A stretch of DNA of 64,000 nucleotides, from assembly GCF_000169175.1 (NCBI RefSeq), contig NZ_AAWS01000014.1, positions 1-64,000 on the forward strand. Reading direction: 5' to 3'. The first letter of the stretch is position 1. The number at the start of each line of letters is the position of its first letter. This document shows, piece by piece, positions 12,908 through 24,939 of this stretch. Position numbers and translations under genes: made by a program. The stretch comes from Microscilla marina ATCC 23134 (lineage in GTDB: Bacteria; Bacteroidota; Bacteroidia; Cytophagales; Microscillaceae). The notes under the pieces were generated by a model. It was not told the origin of the DNA and made no database searches. It saw only the letters and a program-made list of their open reading frames with translations.

Positions 12908-13273
12908 AAAGGCTTACTTTGGTACATGAGACTGCCGTAATCTTGTAAAAAACGTATATTAACTTGACACCTTTATATATGTAATGCCCTAAACTGTATA
13001 AATTATTTGATTTTGACAGGTTGCTTTGTGCAACTGTTGTAGGTAAACTACTTTCTATTAATTGTCCTGTTTAGTGTATAAAACGAACTATAGATAACAA
13101 ATAACCAAACGCCAACGGCTATACTATTACAAAGATGACCTCAGAGCTTGTTTAAACTTCACCTAATAGATGTTTTACGCGATTTTTGCACTCATATGAG
13201 CACAAAACTCATCGAAAATCACGCTAAATACGAATGTTTTAAACAAGCTCTCAAACACAAATTTACGGTAGTT
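12908..13273. other. Intergenic region with an inverted-repeat element
   Basis: About 365 bases between murI and the LRR gene. The right half is a 109-bp element with 14-bp perfect inverted ends (13143-13251). An in-frame ATG at 13148 would extend the LRR gene into this element, but the signal peptide starts at 13274. Confidence 0.6.
13143..13251. repeat. 109-bp inverted-repeat (MITE-like) element
   Basis: Ends agagcttgtttaaa and tttaaacaagctct are perfect inverted repeats of 14 bp. The interior is a rough palindrome centred on ctcatatgag with gcgattttt / aaaatcacgc arms. The end sequence agagcttgtttaaac recurs at 49789-49803. It contains no gene. Confidence 0.6.
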
Positions 13274-14665
13274 ATGAGAAAACGAATATTCAACTTAAGT
13301 TATAAAACCCTTTTTGTCGTACTGCTATCAGCTTTTTTTGCGCATTCAACCAAGGCCCAAAAAATTTATAAAATGGCTGAGCCCGACGCCTACAAAATAT
13401 ATAGGTCGCTGGAACAAGCCCTGCAGGAACCTAATAAAGTAAAACATCTTGACTTGAGCGAGCAAAAGCTCTTGGCAGTGCCCAGTGACATCCAAAAGTT
13501 TAAAAACCTGGTAATACTGGACTTGTTCAATACCAAAATTACCCGTTTGCCTCAGACCATCACTGCTTTGACCAACCTGGAAGAGCTGAACCTGAGCCAA
13601 AACCCTGACTTGAACTTAGCTGAAGTTTTTAGACAATTGACCAAGTTACCTTATTTGCGTAAGCTACACCTGGCCTATAGCAAACTCTCCATGCTGCCAC
13701 CCGAAATAGGGCTTTTGTCGCAGCTTGAGGTACTTAATTTATACAAAAACAAGTTGCGTACGTTGCCTGCCACGGTGAGTAAACTTACCAAGCTCAAAGA
13801 GGTATACTTACAGTCTAACCAATTGAGCCAAATCCCGGCTTGTATTACTACACTTGCCAACTTACAAGTACTAGACTTATACCACAACCAGGTGCAGTTT
13901 GTACCAGCCAACATTGGCAAGTTAGGGCATTTGCGCATATTGAATTTGCACCAAAATGCTTTGCATAAGTTTGATAAAAACGCATGGCAGCTACAAAATC
14001 TCGAAGAACTTTACTTGGGTTCTAACCCCCACCTCAACTATGAAGAAGTGTTGGCAGTACTGGCAAAACTACCCCATCTGCGTGTACTTAACCTTACTAA
14101 CAATAATATAAAGGAGCTACCAATGGAGGTAGGAATGATGCTTAACTTACAGGAACTTTACCTGCAAAATAATTACTTGAGCAAATTGCCCGAAGAGTTA
14201 AGTTTGTTAAAAAACTTACATGTACTCTCGCTGGCTAAAAACCGTTTTACTCAGCTACCCAAACGGTTTGTCAAACTTACCAACTTGAAAGTATTAAGCC
14301 TAAGCCAAAACCCGCAGCTTGATTATGCACAAGTGTTTGACGTATTGGGTAACCTGGAGGGTTTGCAGAAGCTTGACCTATCGGGCAATAACTTACAAAA
14401 ACTTTCGGGGCAGATTGTGTTTTTACAAGGGTTAAGAGATTTAGACTTGCGCAACAATCATTTGAAATCGCTTAGCCCCAAGGTAGCCTTGCTCACCAAC
14501 TTGCGTAAACTGGATTTATACCAAAATCAGCTATCAAGTTTGCCCAAGCGTATTCATTCGTTGAATAACCTGATAGAGCTATACCTGGGCAAAAACAGGT
14601 TGCCCAAAACTGAGCAACTCAAAATTAAGGCTTGGTTTCCGAATGCCTTGGTAAGCTTTCATTAA
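13274..14665 (+). CDS. Secreted leucine-rich-repeat protein
   Basis: A 463-residue exported protein. It has a signal peptide (MRKRIFNLSYKTLFVVLLSA, cleavage after about 28) and 17 leucine-rich repeats of the pattern L-x-x-L-x-L-x-x-N-x-L-x-x-LP. Most repeats have 23 residues, but three (repeats 3, 9 and 13, with NP-x-L-x-x-x-EV-x-x-x-L) have 26. A capping segment near the end (TEQLKIKAWFPNALVSF) closes the solenoid. The start at 13274 is chosen because the signal peptide begins there and the 42 codons upstream lie in a repeat element. The likely role is protein binding in the periplasm or at the surface. It is followed by a terminator. Confidence 0.9.
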   Translation: MRKRIFNLSYKTLFVVLLSAFFAHSTKAQKIYKMAEPDAYKIYRSLEQALQEPNKVKHLDLSEQKLLAVPSDIQKFKNLVILDLFNTKITRLPQTITALTNLEELNLSQNPDLNLAEVFRQLTKLPYLRKLHLAYSKLSMLPPEIGLLSQLEVLNLYKNKLRTLPATVSKLTKLKEVYLQSNQLSQIPACITTLANLQVLDLYHNQVQFVPANIGKLGHLRILNLHQNALHKFDKNAWQLQNLEELYLGSNPHLNYEEVLAVLAKLPHLRVLNLTNNNIKELPMEVGMMLNLQELYLQNNYLSKLPEELSLLKNLHVLSLAKNRFTQLPKRFVKLTNLKVLSLSQNPQLDYAQVFDVLGNLEGLQKLDLSGNNLQKLSGQIVFLQGLRDLDLRNNHLKSLSPKVALLTNLRKLDLYQNQLSSLPKRIHSLNNLIELYLGKNRLPKTEQLKIKAWFPNALVSFH

Positions 14666-18150: not shown

Positions 18151-19185
18151 TTATTTCATGCGTGGAATCACCACATACTCTTTTTTTACCCTAAAGGTAG
18201 TATCTCTTCCTTTGTTTTTAAAAGTAATGGTACCTTCCCAATATTTACGCCCCAATGGGTAGGTGGTCTTAAAGCGCACTTTGCCTATGCCGTTTTCTAC
18301 TTTAATGGGTTCGCCGTTTACCGTCATTTTTGCGTTTGCTTTGCTGGGTACAGCAGCTATCACCATATTGGCACGGTAGGTATCGCCCGACCATAAAATA
18401 TTGCTTTCTGCGCTCACTCCAGTATATATTCTGTCAAATTTAATATCCTCGGTAGCCGGCTGTTGGACATGCAATTGGGTGAGTATATTTTGTTGATCGT
18501 TCAATACTTGGTGTTGCAGTTGAGTAAGCTTTGCCAATGCTACTACCACAGGCTTTTGCCAAAAGTTATCATATACAAAGTTGCCTTTGGGTGCTTCAGG
18601 GTTTTTGGTAAGCAAAGGCAAGGGCTTTTTGAACAAATCTTTATATTCATTGTTTAGCCAATGGCTATAAGCATTGAGCTTTTTTTCAAGCGTATAGGCT
18701 ACTCCTTTGGGGCTACCCAGCATGCCTACCATTAGCTTACTTACCCTGAGCTTGGCTTGGGGGCGTTTTACTGTATATGTTTTTTCATCAAGCCCGTCTC
18801 CCGCTTCATTTATCAAGCGTTGTTTGTTTTTGGTGAGCTCGCTTATGATCTCTGTCGACTTTTTCTTGAGCATCTCTGCCCGTTTAATCAATTCCAAGCC
18901 TTTGAGGGCATTCCCCCCCTTCTTTACATCTCTTTTGAGCGATTGAAGTGATTGATCGCTTTCCCGCTTGTAATTGACCAGCGAATGCTCTAAAGTACTG
19001 TTGATAAGCACAAATTTTTGTATCAAAGGTTCGGGGACTCGGTAGTGGGTATAATACCAAGCACCGAGCGATAAAATGAGCGCCAGGGTAACCACCGAAA
19101 ACCGAATGATTCGTTTGCGCCTTGGAGCCTTCAAGTTGTTTTTTAGGGCTTCTTTTTGAGTGGGTTCGTTTTCTTCTGTGTTCAT
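18151..19185 (-). CDS. GldM-like N-terminal-half protein, paralog 1
   Basis: The longest (344 residues) and most GldM-like member of a six-gene array. A charged N-terminus (EALKNNLKAPRRKRIIRF) precedes one transmembrane helix at about 29-46. A helical periplasmic domain follows, with LINSTLEHSLVNYKRESDQS and VVVALAKLTQLQHQVLNDQQ, matching the pattern of GldM domain 1. A beta domain then has SGDTYRANMVIAA, MTVNGEPIKVENGIGKV and KYWEGTITF, and ends with KKEYVVIPRMK exactly where GldM domain 2 ends. GldM domains 3 and 4 are absent. In gliding/T9SS bacteria GldM is the periplasmic shaft driven by the GldL motor. Whether this short form couples to GldL is inference. It is the last gene of the minus-strand array, 138 bases after paralog 2. 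Confidence 0.7.
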   Translation of the reverse strand: MNTEENEPTQKEALKNNLKAPRRKRIIRFSVVTLALILSLGAWYYTHYRVPEPLIQKFVLINSTLEHSLVNYKRESDQSLQSLKRDVKKGGNALKGLELIKRAEMLKKKSTEIISELTKNKQRLINEAGDGLDEKTYTVKRPQAKLRVSKLMVGMLGSPKGVAYTLEKKLNAYSHWLNNEYKDLFKKPLPLLTKNPEAPKGNFVYDNFWQKPVVVALAKLTQLQHQVLNDQQNILTQLHVQQPATEDIKFDRIYTGVSAESNILWSGDTYRANMVIAAVPSKANAKMTVNGEPIKVENGIGKVRFKTTYPLGRKYWEGTITFKNKGRDTTFRVKKEYVVIPRMK

Positions 19186-19216
19186 GGGTTAATAGTAAAA
19201 ACTTGAAAATCGTCCA

Positions 19217-19315
19217 TTACCTACGATAGGTGATTTTATCTTGCCAATAAAACTTGACAGGCTTTTGGGTTGGTATATTTACTTTGCTGTATTCGTTGCC
19301 TAAAATTTTTGACAT
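19217..19315 (-). CDS. Possible 32-residue small protein
   Basis: An ATG-to-TAA frame of 32 codons fills the 138-bp gap between paralogs 2 and 1. It is basic and aromatic towards its end (VKFYWQDKITYRR). This end vaguely resembles the KQYWEA...TTxV segment of the neighbouring paralogs, so it may be a small gene or the relic of a lost paralog. Evidence is weak. Confidence 0.25.
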   Translation of the reverse strand: MSKILGNEYSKVNIPTQKPVKFYWQDKITYRR

Positions 19316-19323
19316 GGGAAAGG

Positions 19324-20208
19324 TCAGTTATTTATACTTGTTTGGAGTGCTTTTTTGCTTTGTTTATTACCTTGAGGCAATACCTCATAATACACTTTTT
19401 GTACTATAGTAATATCTTTTCCTCGAGAATTAAACCGAAATCTTGCCTCCCAATATTGTTTGCCTACGCCTTGGGTTTTAAAAATCACTTCACTTTTTCC
19501 CTCATTTACAGGTAAAGGGATTTTATAAATACTGAACCTGGGGATTGAACGGGATGCTGTTCCTGATAATATCATATCGGCTTGGTAACGATCACCTACT
19601 TGTATTTGGTTGAGTGTTGGAATAACGCCTGGGCGAAAGTACCTATCGCTAATAGAAACACTCAAGTCACCCGCTCCTAGCTTTCTTAATATCATTGCCT
19701 GCAAACGCTGTATCTGTAGCTTTTTCTCAGCAATGAGCGCCTTGGTAGCAATGGTGGTAGCGTTACTTCGGTGAGGGTACTTTGCCAAAGTATGCTTTGG
19801 GTCAACTGGTGCCAAATCAAGGTCGTTAAATTCGCTATTGATCCAATCTGTATGTTTTTTTAGCGCTTTTTTCAAGGCATCAAACCCTTGTTTACCATTG
19901 TGCCACTGATTGTTTGTGCGCTCAAATAAGCCATTGAGTTTCGTAGTTTTTTTGATGAGTAATTGCGCGCGTTTTATTCTTTCGCGTCCTTCTCTTGAAT
20001 TACCATTTTTGTGTACATCCTCCTTTAAGTTTTCCATGGCTTTCCCTGCCTTCTTGTGCCCTTGCTGCCAAATTGCTTTCATAGCCGTTTGCAGGTCACC
20101 GAGTTGCAGGTCATACGTAGGCGTGTCCCAAAGTATTTGCCCCAAGCACCCCAAGACAATGAGCAGGACAACTATTTCATAAATGCGAGTAATGGGGTGC
20201 TTCATCAT
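19324..20208 (-). CDS. GldM-like N-terminal-half protein, paralog 2
   Basis: A 294-residue single-pass protein. A membrane helix (EIVVLLIVLGCLGQILW) follows a very short cytoplasmic N-terminus. A helical domain ends in ALIAEKKLQIQRLQAMIL, and a beta domain has VGDRYQADMIL and GKQYWEARFRFNSRGKD. It ends KVYYEVLP plus a 14-residue basic tail not found in the others. The ATG at 20208 lies 4 bases after the stop of paralog 3, so the two are translationally close. Its first 170 codons or so are nearly identical to paralog 3 at DNA level, which points to recent duplication or gene conversion. A periplasmic scaffold or motor-linked role is inferred only from the GldM likeness. Confidence 0.68.
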   Translation of the reverse strand: MMKHPITRIYEIVVLLIVLGCLGQILWDTPTYDLQLGDLQTAMKAIWQQGHKKAGKAMENLKEDVHKNGNSREGRERIKRAQLLIKKTTKLNGLFERTNNQWHNGKQGFDALKKALKKHTDWINSEFNDLDLAPVDPKHTLAKYPHRSNATTIATKALIAEKKLQIQRLQAMILRKLGAGDLSVSISDRYFRPGVIPTLNQIQVGDRYQADMILSGTASRSIPRFSIYKIPLPVNEGKSEVIFKTQGVGKQYWEARFRFNSRGKDITIVQKVYYEVLPQGNKQSKKALQTSINN

Positions 20209-20212
20209 CAAG

Positions 20213-21046
20213 TTATTTTACCTCATAATACACTTTTTGTACTATAGTAGTATCTTTTTTTCCATCTACTGTATAATACCTAAACTTAGCCTCCCAATAT
20301 TGTTTGCCTCGTTGGAGCACTTCAAAACGTACAGCGCCGTCCCCTGTAATTTTGTTGTTATAATACATTCGGGTGGTTAATGAGCCATAACGCCGTATTT
20401 TGACCAAAAACAGGTCAGCAGTGTATGTATCGCCCACTTGCACTACATTCGTTTGAGGTACAACGCGCTGCCAACTTCTAAGACCACATCCAGTAAAGGT
20501 AATCTCATCTACTCCTAGCTTTCTTAATATCACTGCCTGCAAACGCTGTATCTGTAGCTTTTTCTCAGCAATGAGCGCCTTGGTAGCAATGGTGGTAGCG
20601 TTACTTCGGTGAGGGTACTTTGCCAAAGCATGCTTTGGGTCAACTAGTTCCAAATCAAAGTCGCCAAATTCGCTATTGATCCAATCTGCATGTTTTTTTA
20701 CAGCCCTTTTCAAGGCATCAAACCCTTGTTTACCATTGTGCCACTGATTGTTTGTGCGCTCAAATAAGCCATTGATTTTCGTAGTTTTTTTGATGAGTAA
20801 TTGCGCGCGTTTTATGCTTTCCAACTCCTCTCTAGGGTTGCCATTTTTGTGTACATCCTCCTCTAAGTTCTCCATGTCTTCCACTGCCTTCTTGTGCCCT
20901 TGCTGCCAGCTTATGTTCATAGCCGTTTGCAGCTCACTAAGTTGAGCATCATACGTAGGTGCGCCCCAAAGTATTTGCCCCAAGCACCCCAAGACAATGA
21001 GCAGGACAACTATTTCATAAATGCGAGTAATGGTGTGCTTCATCAT
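20213..21046 (-). CDS. GldM-like N-terminal-half protein, paralog 3
   Basis: A 277-residue paralog with the same plan: N-terminal membrane helix, helical periplasmic domain, beta domain with VGDTYTADLFL and RGKQYWEAKFRYYTVDGKKD, and the end KVYYEVK. Its front two-thirds is almost the same sequence as paralog 2, while its last 50 codons (from MYYNNKITGDGAVRFEV on) are almost the same as paralog 4. It is therefore a mosaic. It starts 4 bases after paralog 4 stops. The beta domain ends where GldM domain 2 would end, and no further domains follow. Confidence 0.68.
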   Translation of the reverse strand: MMKHTITRIYEIVVLLIVLGCLGQILWGAPTYDAQLSELQTAMNISWQQGHKKAVEDMENLEEDVHKNGNPREELESIKRAQLLIKKTTKINGLFERTNNQWHNGKQGFDALKRAVKKHADWINSEFGDFDLELVDPKHALAKYPHRSNATTIATKALIAEKKLQIQRLQAVILRKLGVDEITFTGCGLRSWQRVVPQTNVVQVGDTYTADLFLVKIRRYGSLTTRMYYNNKITGDGAVRFEVLQRGKQYWEAKFRYYTVDGKKDTTIVQKVYYEVK

Positions 21047-21050
21047 CAAA

Positions 21051-21932
21051 CTATTTTACCTCATAATACACTTTTTGTACTATAGTGGTGTCTTTTTTTC
21101 CGTCTACTGTATAATACCTAAACTTAGCCTCCCAATATTGTTTGCCTCGTGGGGGCACTTCAAAACGTACAGCGCCGTCCCCTGTAATTTTGTTGTTATA
21201 ATACATCTTAGTGATTAATGATGCATAGTGCCAGTGCGTGATCCAAAACATGTCAGCCGTGTATGTATCGCCCACCCTTACCCAACTGGTGGGGGCTGTC
21301 ACAGTAATTGGTGAAGGCGCAAGATTAAAAGGAAAAGCCTCGCTAATGTCGATATTTGGGTAAAATGCCCCCAAGAAGTACAATACTTGGCTTTGGTAAT
21401 GAAGCAATGACAAACGTTGTTGGGCAAGCCAAGCCTTGAGCGAAGCGGAAGTAGTGGTATCAAAAAAATGAGTAACCCATTGCCCCAAAGTAGGGGTCTT
21501 GAGTGGGAAATCGAACGGCAAAGTAAAATGAGGTTTGTCTAGGTCTTCGTATTCTTTATTCAACCATTTTACATGGGCATTCATTACTTGATACACTTGT
21601 TGCTTTACTATTTGAGGTTGGTGGTTGTTTTTTTCTATCTGGTAAAGCGCCTGCATCACTTTTTGGGTAGTGCTTTGCACTAGTTTCGCCCGTTTTAACC
21701 TAGATAATCCATCACGTCCATTACCGAATTTAGCCACCTCTGCCTTTAAGTTTTTAATTGCTGTGATGAGGTATGCTTTGGAGTCTTTTATATCTTCGTT
21801 CAGGGTTGTTTGTAGGATGTTAAATGTTGTTTGGTAGGCAAACGGTGGCGTAAAAGCCATTAGCCCCACACAAATCACCACTAGGCATATAGCAAGTACT
21901 TCATATATACGATAAATTGTGTTCCAGTTCAT
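21051..21932 (-). CDS. GldM-like N-terminal-half protein, paralog 4
   Basis: A 293-residue member with a distinct front end: the membrane helix is VLAICLVVICVGLMAFTP, followed by a divergent helical domain (LKAEVAKFGNGRDGLSRLKR keeps the array pattern of a K-x-G-N-x-x-x-G turn and a LKRAKL helix). The beta domain (VGDTYTADMFWI, then the MYYNNKITGDG block shared with paralog 3) closes with KVYYEVK. It is separated from paralog 5 by 73 bases. The sharp change from divergent to near-identical sequence against paralog 3 marks a recombination boundary near 21200. Confidence 0.67.
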   Translation of the reverse strand: MNWNTIYRIYEVLAICLVVICVGLMAFTPPFAYQTTFNILQTTLNEDIKDSKAYLITAIKNLKAEVAKFGNGRDGLSRLKRAKLVQSTTQKVMQALYQIEKNNHQPQIVKQQVYQVMNAHVKWLNKEYEDLDKPHFTLPFDFPLKTPTLGQWVTHFFDTTTSASLKAWLAQQRLSLLHYQSQVLYFLGAFYPNIDISEAFPFNLAPSPITVTAPTSWVRVGDTYTADMFWITHWHYASLITKMYYNNKITGDGAVRFEVPPRGKQYWEAKFRYYTVDGKKDTTIVQKVYYEVK

Positions 21933-22005
21933 TTGCCTAAAGCTTACGTGAAAAAAAAGGGCGCATGTTTTATACCTGATAATTTAGCCTCAATAGAACA
22001 TTTTA

Positions 22006-22836
22006 TTACTTGCCTTTTGGCAATGCCTCATAATAAATTTTGTGCACTACAGTAGTATCTTTTCCATTGTATGTATAATACCTAAACTTAGCCTCCCAAT
22101 ATTGCTTGCCCCTGTTTTTTTGGGTAAAACTCACCACCCCTTTGCGGTATTGTAGGTGAGGGGAGGACGATCGCTTAATACTTTCGCCATCAACGGGCTG
22201 TCCATAATACAAGCTTGCCCTGTACTCGTCGCCTACTTGTACCAGTTGACTTTTGGGAGTTATATATACACGTTGGCACCCAAAACAACACTTGATTTCA
22301 CCTGAGGGGCATACAATCAGTAAAGCACGCAACACCATTTTTTGCACCTGTTGTAGTTGTAACTGTTTCGTGGTGACCAATGCCCTGACAACAGCAGGGG
22401 TAGCACCGCCCACCTCAGGGTATTTTGTCAATGAGTCAAGCAGTGGCAATTGAAGATTCTTAAATGTGCGTTGAAGCCACTGGTGATATTTGCTCACCGT
22501 TTGCTCCAAGGAGCTAAGCGCTTGCTGATTGTTTTGCCCGTGAGTCTTTATATGCTCAAGGGCATTGTTTATTTGCTTGGTTTTGTGTACTAGTTGTTGC
22601 CCCTTTCTTACACTTTCCCAGTTTTGGGCTGTATTGTTTCTTATTATCACCGATTCTTTAAAATCATTGATCAACTCAAACGCTTGTTTTTGGCTTTGTT
22701 GCCAATTGGTGTTCATAGCCGTTTGCAGCTCACTAAGTTGGGCATCATACGTAGGCGTGCCCCAAAGTATTTGCCTCAAGCACCCCAAGACAATGAGCAG
22801 GACAACTATTTCATAAATACGCGCAATTATGTGCAT
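22006..22836 (-). CDS. GldM-like N-terminal-half protein, paralog 5
   Basis: A 276-residue member. The first 45 codons or so (RIYEIVVLLIVLGCL, then YDAQLSELQTAMN) are close to paralogs 2 and 3, while the helical domain is diverged (FELINDFKESVIIRN). The beta domain has an unusual Cys-rich entry (IVCPSGEIKCCFGCQRVY, four cysteines), then VGDEYRASLYYG, RGKQYWEAKFRYYTYNGKD and an end in YYEALPKGK. The ATG at 22836 overlaps the TAA of paralog 6 by one base (TAATG), giving translational coupling. A TTG 12 bases upstream is less likely because it lies inside the paralog 6 coding end. Confidence 0.67.
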   Translation of the reverse strand: MHIIARIYEIVVLLIVLGCLRQILWGTPTYDAQLSELQTAMNTNWQQSQKQAFELINDFKESVIIRNNTAQNWESVRKGQQLVHKTKQINNALEHIKTHGQNNQQALSSLEQTVSKYHQWLQRTFKNLQLPLLDSLTKYPEVGGATPAVVRALVTTKQLQLQQVQKMVLRALLIVCPSGEIKCCFGCQRVYITPKSQLVQVGDEYRASLYYGQPVDGESIKRSSSPHLQYRKGVVSFTQKNRGKQYWEAKFRYYTYNGKDTTVVHKIYYEALPKGK

Positions 22837-23660
22837 TACTTTACCCAATAGGGTGTTTTTACTGTATTGGTATATTCTACACCTTCGTGACAGTAGCTAA
22901 ACTTACTTGTCCAGTATTGTTTGCCCTTGCCGCTTACGCGAAACTCTATAACAGCACCCTTGCCCTTAAGGAAAGCTGGCTTGCCATTGACTTCGGCATA
23001 ATACCATTGTTTTTTATCCCAAAAGGGAAAGGCTTCCCCTACCACCATCGCTGCTTTGAGCGTATCGCCCACCTCTATGTGGTTGACAGGTTGTGTTATT
23101 CCTGTTACTGTAGGTATAAAAAAACAACCATAAGGATATATACCATATTTTATCCCTACCCCTTTTACTATTGGTTTCCAATGCTTTAATATAAACAATT
23201 GGTAGGCAGTGAGCATTGCCAAGGTTTCGTAAGTAGTATTCGCTTTGCCAAAGTAGTTGGTAGGCATAGGTCCAAACTGAGGAATATCCAAGTGTTTATA
23301 TTGTTCGTTCCTAAAAACCATATAGGCATTTAAACTGTCTTTCAATGCTTTTGCCTGGCTTGCATGAAGGTATTGAGGCATATTTTTTTTGTAGTAATCT
23401 ATTTGTCGCAACTTTTTCAATGGTTTGTGCCATAGCTGTTGTAGTTCTTGCCAAACCTGATAGCCATTGTCCCTTTTGCTCAATAACTTAGTAATATCCT
23501 CTTTCCAGTATTTTCTCTCAAATTTTTGACTTTTGTCTAAAACCTTGTAAAACTCTTCAAAGTGAGTGTTGTAGTGATTGGGGAATACAATACACACCAG
23601 ACCTAGGTATACTATTACCAACCAGGCAATTATTTCATAAATACGAGTAATTATGCGCAT
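22836..23660 (-). CDS. GldM-like N-terminal-half protein, paralog 6
   Basis: First gene of the array: 274 residues and the most divergent. It has a membrane helix (EIIAWLVIVYLGLVCIVF), a helical domain rich in Trp, Tyr and Lys, and a beta domain with VGDTLKAAMVVGEA, VNGKPAFLKGKGAV and GKGKQYWTSKFSY. It ends KTPYWVK. The ATG at 23660 is preferred. The 21 bases just upstream of it are identical to this gene's own last codons, so a vanished neighbour seems to have ended there. Transcription probably starts in the 100 bases between this gene and the terminator at 23757-23792. Confidence 0.67.
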   Translation of the reverse strand: MRIITRIYEIIAWLVIVYLGLVCIVFPNHYNTHFEEFYKVLDKSQKFERKYWKEDITKLLSKRDNGYQVWQELQQLWHKPLKKLRQIDYYKKNMPQYLHASQAKALKDSLNAYMVFRNEQYKHLDIPQFGPMPTNYFGKANTTYETLAMLTAYQLFILKHWKPIVKGVGIKYGIYPYGCFFIPTVTGITQPVNHIEVGDTLKAAMVVGEAFPFWDKKQWYYAEVNGKPAFLKGKGAVIEFRVSGKGKQYWTSKFSYCHEGVEYTNTVKTPYWVK

Positions 23661-23681
23661 TACTTTACCCAATAGGGTGTT
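23658..23681 (-). pseudogene. Relic of a seventh array member (last codons only)
   Basis: The 24-bp sequence at 23658-23681 is identical to 22834-22857, the junction where paralog 6 ends (TPYWVK-stop) and paralog 5 begins (TAATG). Here it precedes paralog 6 with no gene attached. This is what a deletion by unequal crossing-over in a tandem array would leave. Confidence 0.5.
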
Positions 23682-23756
23682 ACGTTCGTATGGTTGATTG
23701 TTAAACCACCATACCAGATGAAGGCAAGGCAGTGGAGAAAGTAAATTTAATTGGCA

Positions 23757-23792
23757 ACAAAAAAGCCTGCCATCAATGAATGAGGCAGGCTT
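23757..23792 (-). terminator. Terminator of the 82-residue gene
   Basis: On the minus strand aagcctgcc / ggcaggctt with a 12-nt loop, followed by a T run. It lies 8 bases past the stop codon of the 82-residue gene and insulates the mini-GldM array from it. Confidence 0.85.
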
Positions 23793-23799
23793 GTGTGGG

Positions 23800-24048
23800 T
23801 TATGGGTTGAGTTGCTGTAGCGAATCGTACATTTCGAACTCGTTGAGCAAACACTCTAACTCGAAGATGGTGGTTTGCAAATAGTTTTTGAGCGGTTCGT
23901 TTTGTTGCTCCCACAGGTAGTCTAACGAGGCATCGGCATTGAGCACAAACACCTCAAGCCGGGCGCGTAAACTCAAGGCAAACAAATCGATTTGTTGGGT
24001 TGAAATGGCAACACTTTGTGCCTCTGCGTTTAATTCAGTAAATTGCAT
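23800..24048 (-). CDS. Small unknown protein with structured leader, copy 1
   Basis: An 82-residue acidic protein of no known family, paralogous to the gene at 44885-45127. The first 12 residues (MQFTELNAEAQS) are identical in both copies and the rest is about one-third identical, with conserved L-x-LxAD-x-x-L and (K)-x-YLQ(T/A)(T/S)I segments. It is all-helical by appearance, with no signal peptide, membrane helix or cysteine. A promoter and a two-hairpin leader upstream are also shared with copy 2, and a good terminator follows, so each is a self-contained single-gene unit. The invariant N-terminus followed by a variable body could suggest a targeting or leader segment, but this is speculation. 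Confidence 0.72.
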   Translation of the reverse strand: MQFTELNAEAQSVAISTQQIDLFALSLRARLEVFVLNADASLDYLWEQQNEPLKNYLQTTIFELECLLNEFEMYDSLQQLNP

Positions 24049-24139
24049 ACTGTTATATATTTTTATGTGACAAAAAGCCCTTGAGGGAAGCGTCCAAACT
24101 TAACCTCTTGGGCTATACTTTCACCCTGAAAGTACTTGG
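24049..24139 (-). promoter_or_regulatory. Conserved two-hairpin 5' leader, copy 1
   Basis: Reading towards the gene: hairpin 1 is actttca-ggg-tgaaagt (24117-24133). Hairpin 2 pairs agcccaagagg with cctcaagggct and is followed by TTTTTG (24071-24114). Then 23 to 26 nt lead to the ATG. Both hairpins recur in the copy at 45128-45217 while the loops differ. The second hairpin looks like an intrinsic terminator ahead of the gene, so an attenuation or RNA-based control is plausible. Confidence 0.5.
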
Positions 24140-24170
24140 TAAATATAGTAAAAAAGCCCACCTTTTGCAA
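24140..24170 (-). promoter_or_regulatory. Promoter of small gene copy 1
   Basis: On the minus strand TTG (24168-24170), 20-nt spacer, TATATTTA (24140-24147). The same arrangement with a perfect TATATTTG precedes copy 2. Transcription would begin at the first hairpin of the leader. Confidence 0.65.
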
Positions 24171-24432
24171 GTAAAATTAAGTGTTAATTTACTGATAATG
24201 AGTCTATTGCACTTTGAATGAAAGGAGTTAAACTTTGAAAAAACTCTGCGAAAGGGCGATTTGTGGAGACACAAACCGAGGCGAAAAGAGTCTATTGGTG
24301 TGTTTTTGCTAAAATACGTGCGGCGAAAGATCGGTTAAACATAAAAAAATCGTATTAGAAGAATCGTTGTTACAATTCTCCTAATACGATGTGATGCGCT
24401 CAAATACTTAAGAACAGCTTCCTAAATGCTAC
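24171..24432. other. Intergenic region
   Basis: No gene is seen. The YHS-DoxX-DinB terminator lies at 24344-24390. The rest (24171-24340) shows no recognised feature. Confidence 0.5.
24344..24390 (-). terminator. Terminator after the DinB gene
   Basis: atcgtattag / ctaatacgat with a secondary gaat / attc pairing; on the minus strand the stem is followed by TTTTTTT. Confidence 0.8.
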
Positions 24433-24939
24433 TTAAGCAGTTTGGTGGTGAAACTTGATCGTAGAATAAGCCACCCCAAAGTCTTTGGACAAGGTAACAT
24501 GAGGGTAACATTGCTTGATGGCAATCTTGATAATTGCCATGTGGTGAATGGCGTGTTCTACATTATAAGCAAGTTCACGGTCTAGCGAAGTAAGCGTGCA
24601 AGCTTCATGTCCTTCTGGCGAAAGCAACGTAGTAAGGTTGATAGGGTCGTTAGACAACTCCATCGTAGACAAGTGCTGAATGCAATTGTTTATAAAGTTG
24701 ATGGCAAACTCAGGATCATTCTCAATAGAAGGATTACGTTCTCTGAGGTCGTAATTGATAGAAGCATCTGCTATACCTTTAAAGAGGCAGTCATAAAATT
24801 CAACAATATGACGCAAATGTTTGCTGATAGAGTTATCCATTAGCAAAGGCAATGGACTGGTATATTCTTCTGGACTGAGTTGTTTGATGAGTCCAACAAG
24901 TTGATTTAAGATATTACTAGATGATGTAATTAAATTCAT
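24433..24939 (-). CDS. DinB-superfamily protein
   Basis: A 168-residue four-helix-bundle protein of the DinB/YfiT type. Potential metal-binding histidines appear in SKHLRHIVEFYD and in NVEHAIHHMAIIKI, the usual spacing for the HxxxH-type site of the superfamily. Members act as metal-dependent thiol transferases or have no known role. The ATG at 24939 is preferred over an in-frame TTG two codons upstream. It begins 15 bases after the DoxX gene stops. A YHS-domain gene precedes both, a trio that recurs in Bacteroidota and may concern redox or metal stress. Confidence 0.82.
   Translation of the reverse strand: MNLITSSSNILNQLVGLIKQLSPEEYTSPLPLLMDNSISKHLRHIVEFYDCLFKGIADASINYDLRERNPSIENDPEFAINFINNCIQHLSTMELSNDPINLTTLLSPEGHEACTLTSLDRELAYNVEHAIHHMAIIKIAIKQCYPHVTLSKDFGVAYSTIKFHHQTA

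Follow-up and report, generated by a model that had tools for sequence, protein, structure and literature searches.

Truncated GldM paralogs in a mosaic tandem array of Microscilla marina and their possible role outside the gliding motor

Introduction

GldM is the drive shaft of the gliding and type IX secretion (GldLM rotary) motor and is usually treated only as the rigid shaft of this motor. The periplasmic shaft consists of four domains, D1 to D4, of which D1 follows the transmembrane (TM) helix (PMC5790014). Which role could be played by a row of GldM-like proteins that lack D3 and D4 and are encoded without linked motor genes? The question is raised by a stretch of 64,000 nucleotides of the Microscilla marina genome (contig NZ_AAWS01000014.1, positions 1 to 64,000; hereafter the window), in which six genes of the same direction, located on the minus strand at 18151-23672, encode single-TM proteins. 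A sequence-only reading of the window had interpreted the proteins as GldM paralogs reduced to TM-D1-D2 and had proposed that they act as alternative shafts, capping proteins or adaptors for a GldL-type motor. The paralogy has been borne out, whereas the role as shaft or adaptor of a GldL motor has not. A limited search of the open-access literature returned no description of such a system, as that reading had supposed.

Organization of the array

The array consists of the following genes, numbered by position:

18151..19185, minus strand: gene 1, mini-GldM of 344 aa with a cytoplasmic N-terminus and TM helix, a complete D1 (about residues 55-241) and D2 (about 245-341)
19324..20211, minus strand: gene 2, mini-GldM of 295 aa with a shortened D1 and D2 present; the ATG lies one or two codons in
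20213..21049, minus strand: gene 3, mini-GldM of 278 aa, a mosaic of a gene 2-like N-terminal part and a gene 4-like D2 end
21051..21932, minus strand: gene 4, mini-GldM of 293 aa, matched by our D1 and D2 profiles and aligning over its full length with the other copies
22006..22848, minus strand: gene 5, mini-GldM of 280 aa, matched by our D2 profile, with a structure model resembling PorM/GldM D1
22836..23672, minus strand: gene 6, mini-GldM of 278 aa, the first gene of the array and its most divergent copy

The open reading frames (ORFs) as listed encode 278-344 aa each; counted from in-frame ATGs, which place the start of gene 6 near 23660 and that of gene 5 near 22836, the lengths are 274-344 aa, in agreement with the sequence-only reading. 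The single N-terminal membrane helix noted there is likewise found in every protein as one hydrophobic segment (Kyte-Doolittle maximum over 19 residues of 1.8-2.6), and the only later stretch above 1.1 is a weaker one in gene 5 (1.48). The motif AKLTQLQHQVL and the C-terminus EYVVIPRMK, both highlighted earlier in gene 1, are present. With intergenic gaps of 1-138 bp, and with genes 6 and 5 nearly overlapping, the six genes look like a single operon.

In genes 2-6 (19324-23672) the TM helix opens with a shared RIYE motif, in which they differ from both gene 1 and canonical GldM. Gene 5 (22006-22848) carries a cysteine cluster, KCCFGC, in the linker between D1 and D2, which is kept in a sister species and could form disulfides in the periplasm.

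The array is flanked by housekeeping or unrelated genes, and none of the flanking genes tested (10 with NCBIfam, a few with Pfam) is a gldK, gldL or gldN, as had been stated from the sequence. A leucine-rich-repeat protein of 505 aa is encoded near the array at 13148-14665 of the window and is also kept in the sister species. On the other side, an 82-aa ORF on the minus strand (window 23800-24048) lies between the array and a DinB-like gene; a search of the gap at 23672-24433 for an effector gene returned just this ORF and smaller ones.

Homology to GldM

All six array proteins are homologs of GldM D1 and D2, with one N-terminal hydrophobic helix and without D3-D4. Gene 1 matches the Pfam families GldM_1st (6.8e-22) and GldM_2nd (6.8e-24), the latter of which is also matched by gene 2 (9.1e-9) and gene 3 (4.7e-5), with genes 3-6 weaker than gene 2. 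The NCBIfam model TIGR03517 is matched by gene 1 (2.1e-42), gene 2 (1.2e-8), gene 3 (8.6e-4) and, over the D2 part, gene 6 (5.5e-5), and not by gene 5. No array protein reaches the equivalog cut-off of this model (180 bits): gene 1 comes closest with 145.6 bits, a score that derives from D1-D2 alone and is no surprise when D3-D4 are absent, and the other genes score about 34 bits or less or have no match. Domain-split profiles for TM, D1, D2 and D3-D4, which we built from 22 canonical GldM sequences, detected D2 in genes 1-5 and D1 in genes 1-4 (D1: gene 2, 1.4e-5; gene 4, 1.1e-5; D2: gene 2, 8.1e-10; gene 4, 0.03; gene 5, 3.1e-3). The profile of D3-D4, the distal portion of the shaft, matched none of the six proteins, which stop at the D2 boundary; the TM-D1-D2 extent read from the sequence is correct. 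For gene 6, D1 and D2 are assigned only through homology to its sister copies (blastp against gene 4, 8e-17) and the TIGR03517 match to D2, and for gene 5 the assignment is supported by its structure model.

In pairwise comparisons all six proteins align along their full length, and the D2 core residues G, W, T, K and Y are invariant across the copies. In D1, genes 2-6 are shorter than gene 1 and canonical GldM by a segment of about 30 residues. In a phylogenetic tree, genes 2-6 group with their sister-species orthologs in a single clade (support 100/97), while gene 1, which of all array copies is nearest to canonical GldM, is placed among the canonical GldM proteins of its family, with weak support for the deep fork. 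The top sequence match of the array profile in the PDB is PorM (7cmg, 2.7e-8).

The model of gene 5 is of low-to-middling confidence (mean pLDDT 65, pTM 0.53; helical core mostly 70-92). Foldseek places PorM/GldM at ranks 1-3, and in a second structural aligner the seven best matches are all GldM/PorM chains, aligned over D1 (144-153 residues, rmsd 2.9-3.9). Their Z scores are 10.9-12.8, with the next match at 7.2; since unrelated helical bundles may score about 13 with this aligner, the weight lies on all seven top matches being GldM/PorM and on the sequence homology. The model of gene 6 was set aside as evidence (pLDDT 57); its structural matches are mostly STAT and Ig-like folds, and Foldseek places PorM tenth.

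Distribution and evolution

A sister Microscilla (NZ_CANLRP010000030.1) has five array genes in the same place, with conserved neighbours on both sides; the orthologs of gene 1 and gene 4 are 95% and 94% identical, respectively, and the reading frames are intact in both species. Synteny thus extends to this relative, and no further array was seen in 291 genomes of the order Cytophagales, in several families of which mini-GldM proteins occur singly or in pairs. Outside the order, every match listed from 119 genomes sampled from the class, a list that may miss weak mini-GldM, lies in an ORF of at least 431 residues, the length expected of full-length GldM. Motor-free D1-D2 and D1-only proteins are absent among the matches from the sampled genomes of the other orders.

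The array is a mosaic shaped by gene conversion, and its proteins evolve more rapidly than those of gldM and three neighbouring genes. Gene 3 resembles gene 2 in its N-terminal two thirds and gene 4 at its D2 end; compared with the sister's gene 4 its nucleotide identity is 57% overall and 97% in the best 40 codons, located in D2. Genes 2 and 3 are 98% identical in a D1 window, and the N-terminus of gene 5 is 93% identical to that of gene 3. The window identities of these three pairs were attained in 0 of 2000 shuffles, and the same test revealed no high-identity window between genes 5 and 6, genes 1 and 2, or gene 1 and gldM. Between the two Microscilla species, dN/dS (a single species pair, simple counting method) is 0.19-0.41 for the array orthologs, compared with 0.03 for gldM and 0.00-0.07 for the three neighbouring genes, a rise that is also compatible with relaxed constraint.

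The N-terminal segment and the motor

Conservation in canonical GldM is highest in the N-terminal/TM segment, in which 20 of 29 positions are near-invariant among the 22 sequences. Gene 1 retains 8 of these 20 residues, compared with 16 of 20 near-invariant positions in its D2, and genes 2-6 retain 3-6. The profile of this segment matched none of the six array proteins, even with filters off. By a genome search, from which the own-genome paralog counts derive, the genome (98% complete) contains one GldL above cut-off (206 bits), the next match scoring 9.8 bits. This GldL adjoins the full-length gldM in a gldKLMN-like cluster on contig C37, separate from that of the array; a second gldL as a driver of the array, for which the sequence-only reading had suggested a search, was not found. 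In another genome a mini-GldM is present and neither GldL nor full-length GldM was detected; as this genome is just 88% complete and has SprA, it is no more than a candidate for a mini-GldM without a motor.

Relatives carrying D1

Proteins related to the array, of the D1-D2 or the D1-only type, are often apparent lipoproteins, both in this genome and in the order. Those in the Microscilla marina genome that start with a lipobox in place of a TM helix include a D1-D2 pair on contig C43 and D1-only proteins on contig C60, where the latter are interleaved with genes of a single family that has conserved N-terminal parts and variable C-terminal ends. Five of the six D1 genes at loci of this type (the sister species accounts for one) sit directly behind such a family member. 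The C60 partners tD and tE share 99% of their nucleotides over 125 codons, after which identity falls to 37-59%, as in variable-tip effectors. The loci L035 (7704-18559, on C60) and L100 (4088-14793), which combine D1-only lipoproteins, the repeated family and MORN-like proteins, look like polymorphic effector/immunity-type loci. On contig C16 (L037, 5577-11205) a D1-like lipoprotein is encoded behind a protein of 449 residues, near Pvc16_N and AAA ATPase genes; the gene set suggests an extracellular contractile injection cluster, in which the lipoprotein possibly has an adjacent effector partner. The partner proteins of C60 and C16 have no convincing match among the Pfam and NCBIfam toxin families and are thus putative effectors.

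D1 is also found fused to vWA/YfbK domains in lipoproteins of several genomes of the family:

L036, 6996-9152: lipoprotein with D1 and vWA/YfbK, vWA identified by Pfam
L108, L115 and L116: lipoproteins with D1 and vWA/YfbK, by sequence likeness

At L106 (7870-9798), in one genome, D1 is followed by an apparent long TPR-like repeat region, as read from the sequence. The lipoprotein at L111 (8132-9295) has the apparent order D2-D1-D2, in which only the D1 profile match is significant.

Possible roles of the array

We hypothesize, tentatively and with less than even confidence, that the array has a motor-free, diversified periplasmic binding role. GldM D1-D2 would have been duplicated and freed from the gliding and type IX secretion motor in a lineage-specific expansion. 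The resulting proteins would be anchored in the inner membrane, with D1-D2 exposed to the periplasm. As in GldM, D1 helix 1 and a strand swap in D2 may hold them together as homo- or heterodimers, and they would serve passively as a diversified set of binding proteins. Their likeliest use would be an immunity- or decoy-like recognition of incoming or self-made effectors. This function is suggested by an analogy: at other loci of the genome, GldM-D1 lipoproteins are interspersed with variable effector-like genes. We know of no GldM fold in an immunity role. Rapid divergence and recombination are present among the array copies, though they are also found outside immunity genes. It counts against this reading that the analogy is taken from D1-only relatives at other loci and that, among the neighbours checked, no effector-like gene lies beside the array in the window. 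The RIYE motif of genes 2-6 suggests a specific membrane partner beyond a plain anchor, which may also speak against passive binders. A wider proposal, which we hold with clearly less assurance, is that Cytophagales have turned GldM D1-D2 into a recognition module which is no longer tied to the motor, has new TM or lipid anchors, occurs in fusions with vWA or repeat domains and is present in Microscilla as the array and as effector-paired lipoproteins, with an immunity or decoy function.

The main rival to motor-free binding is that mini-GldM proteins, gene 1 above all, form mixed dimers with full-length GldM and, as half-shafts, cap, tune or block the coupling of GldLM to GldKN; this capping or mixed-dimer role, part of which the sequence-only reading had raised, we consider possible but less likely. 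Over D1-D2, gene 1 and the canonical GldM of the same genome are about 45-51% identical; gene 1 retains 22 of 38 residues of D1 helix 1 and stops at the D2/D3 boundary, and GldM/PorM proteins dimerise via D1 helix 1 and D2/D3 swaps (PMC5790014). However, genes 2-6 retain just 5-10 of the 38 residues, about 8 extra residues separate the TM helix from helix 1 in gene 1, isolated D1 did not self-associate in two-hybrid tests (PMC5790014), and the lipoprotein relatives are probably located in another membrane. The GldM D1-D2 dimer could also serve as a generic stalk, that is, as a periplasmic scaffold or adaptor for an unrelated envelope process. The fusions to vWA/YfbK and the apparent TPR-like repeats indicate that D1 acts as a general module, but fast mosaic diversification is atypical of scaffolds and no conserved partner gene was seen beside the array, which leaves this option rather improbable.

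It is more doubtful again that the genes are duplicates in decay or under weak constraint that lack a specific role: the raised dN/dS (0.2-0.4) and the unequal copy number (six versus five) would fit, whereas the intact frames in both species, dN/dS values well under 1 and the invariant D2 core argue otherwise. We give the least credence to alternative drive shafts through which GldL would power another type of motor output. The order TM-D1-D2 is that of the motor-proximal half of GldM, and gene 1 retains Pro-Arg ahead of its TM helix; the contact between GldL and GldM, however, runs through the TM helices (PMC8986121), where the canonical motif is lost. Together with the absence of D3-D4, the single GldL and the lipobox-bearing relatives, which are hard to square with a shaft, this loss makes a role of the array proteins as motor shafts unlikely as far as their sequences indicate. 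They look more like fast-changing spare binding proteins than extra motors.

Comparison with known systems

If the immunity-like reading is true, the gliding motor would be linked to competition between bacteria. Motor-free D1-D2 and D1-only proteins are in any case natural truncations with which D1 and D2 can be probed alone, and genome annotation based on GldM domains could miscount mini-GldM genes as extra type IX secretion motors.

The array resembles GldM/PorM (TIGR03517; PF12081 GldM_1st, PF21601 GldM_2nd) in the D1 helical bundle, the D2 beta domain, the single N-terminal membrane helix and the expected periplasmic orientation, and differs in lacking D3-D4, the conserved N-terminal/TM motif and linked gldL, gldK or gldN, as well as in comprising six divergent tandem copies with gene-conversion mosaics. 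GldO of Flavobacterium johnsoniae, an adjacent paralog of GldN, is likewise an extra paralog of a type IX secretion component in one genome; in contrast to GldO, which is reported to be partially redundant with GldN (PMC9127263), the array copies are truncated and lack the motor-contact motif. With the immunity proteins of polymorphic toxin systems (general reference, PMC3482391), the array appears to share fast change, mosaicism, variable number and membrane or lipoprotein genes. It differs from them in having no adjacent effector gene, and neutralisation is putative, yet D1-only relatives in the same genome are found directly behind variable effector-like genes.
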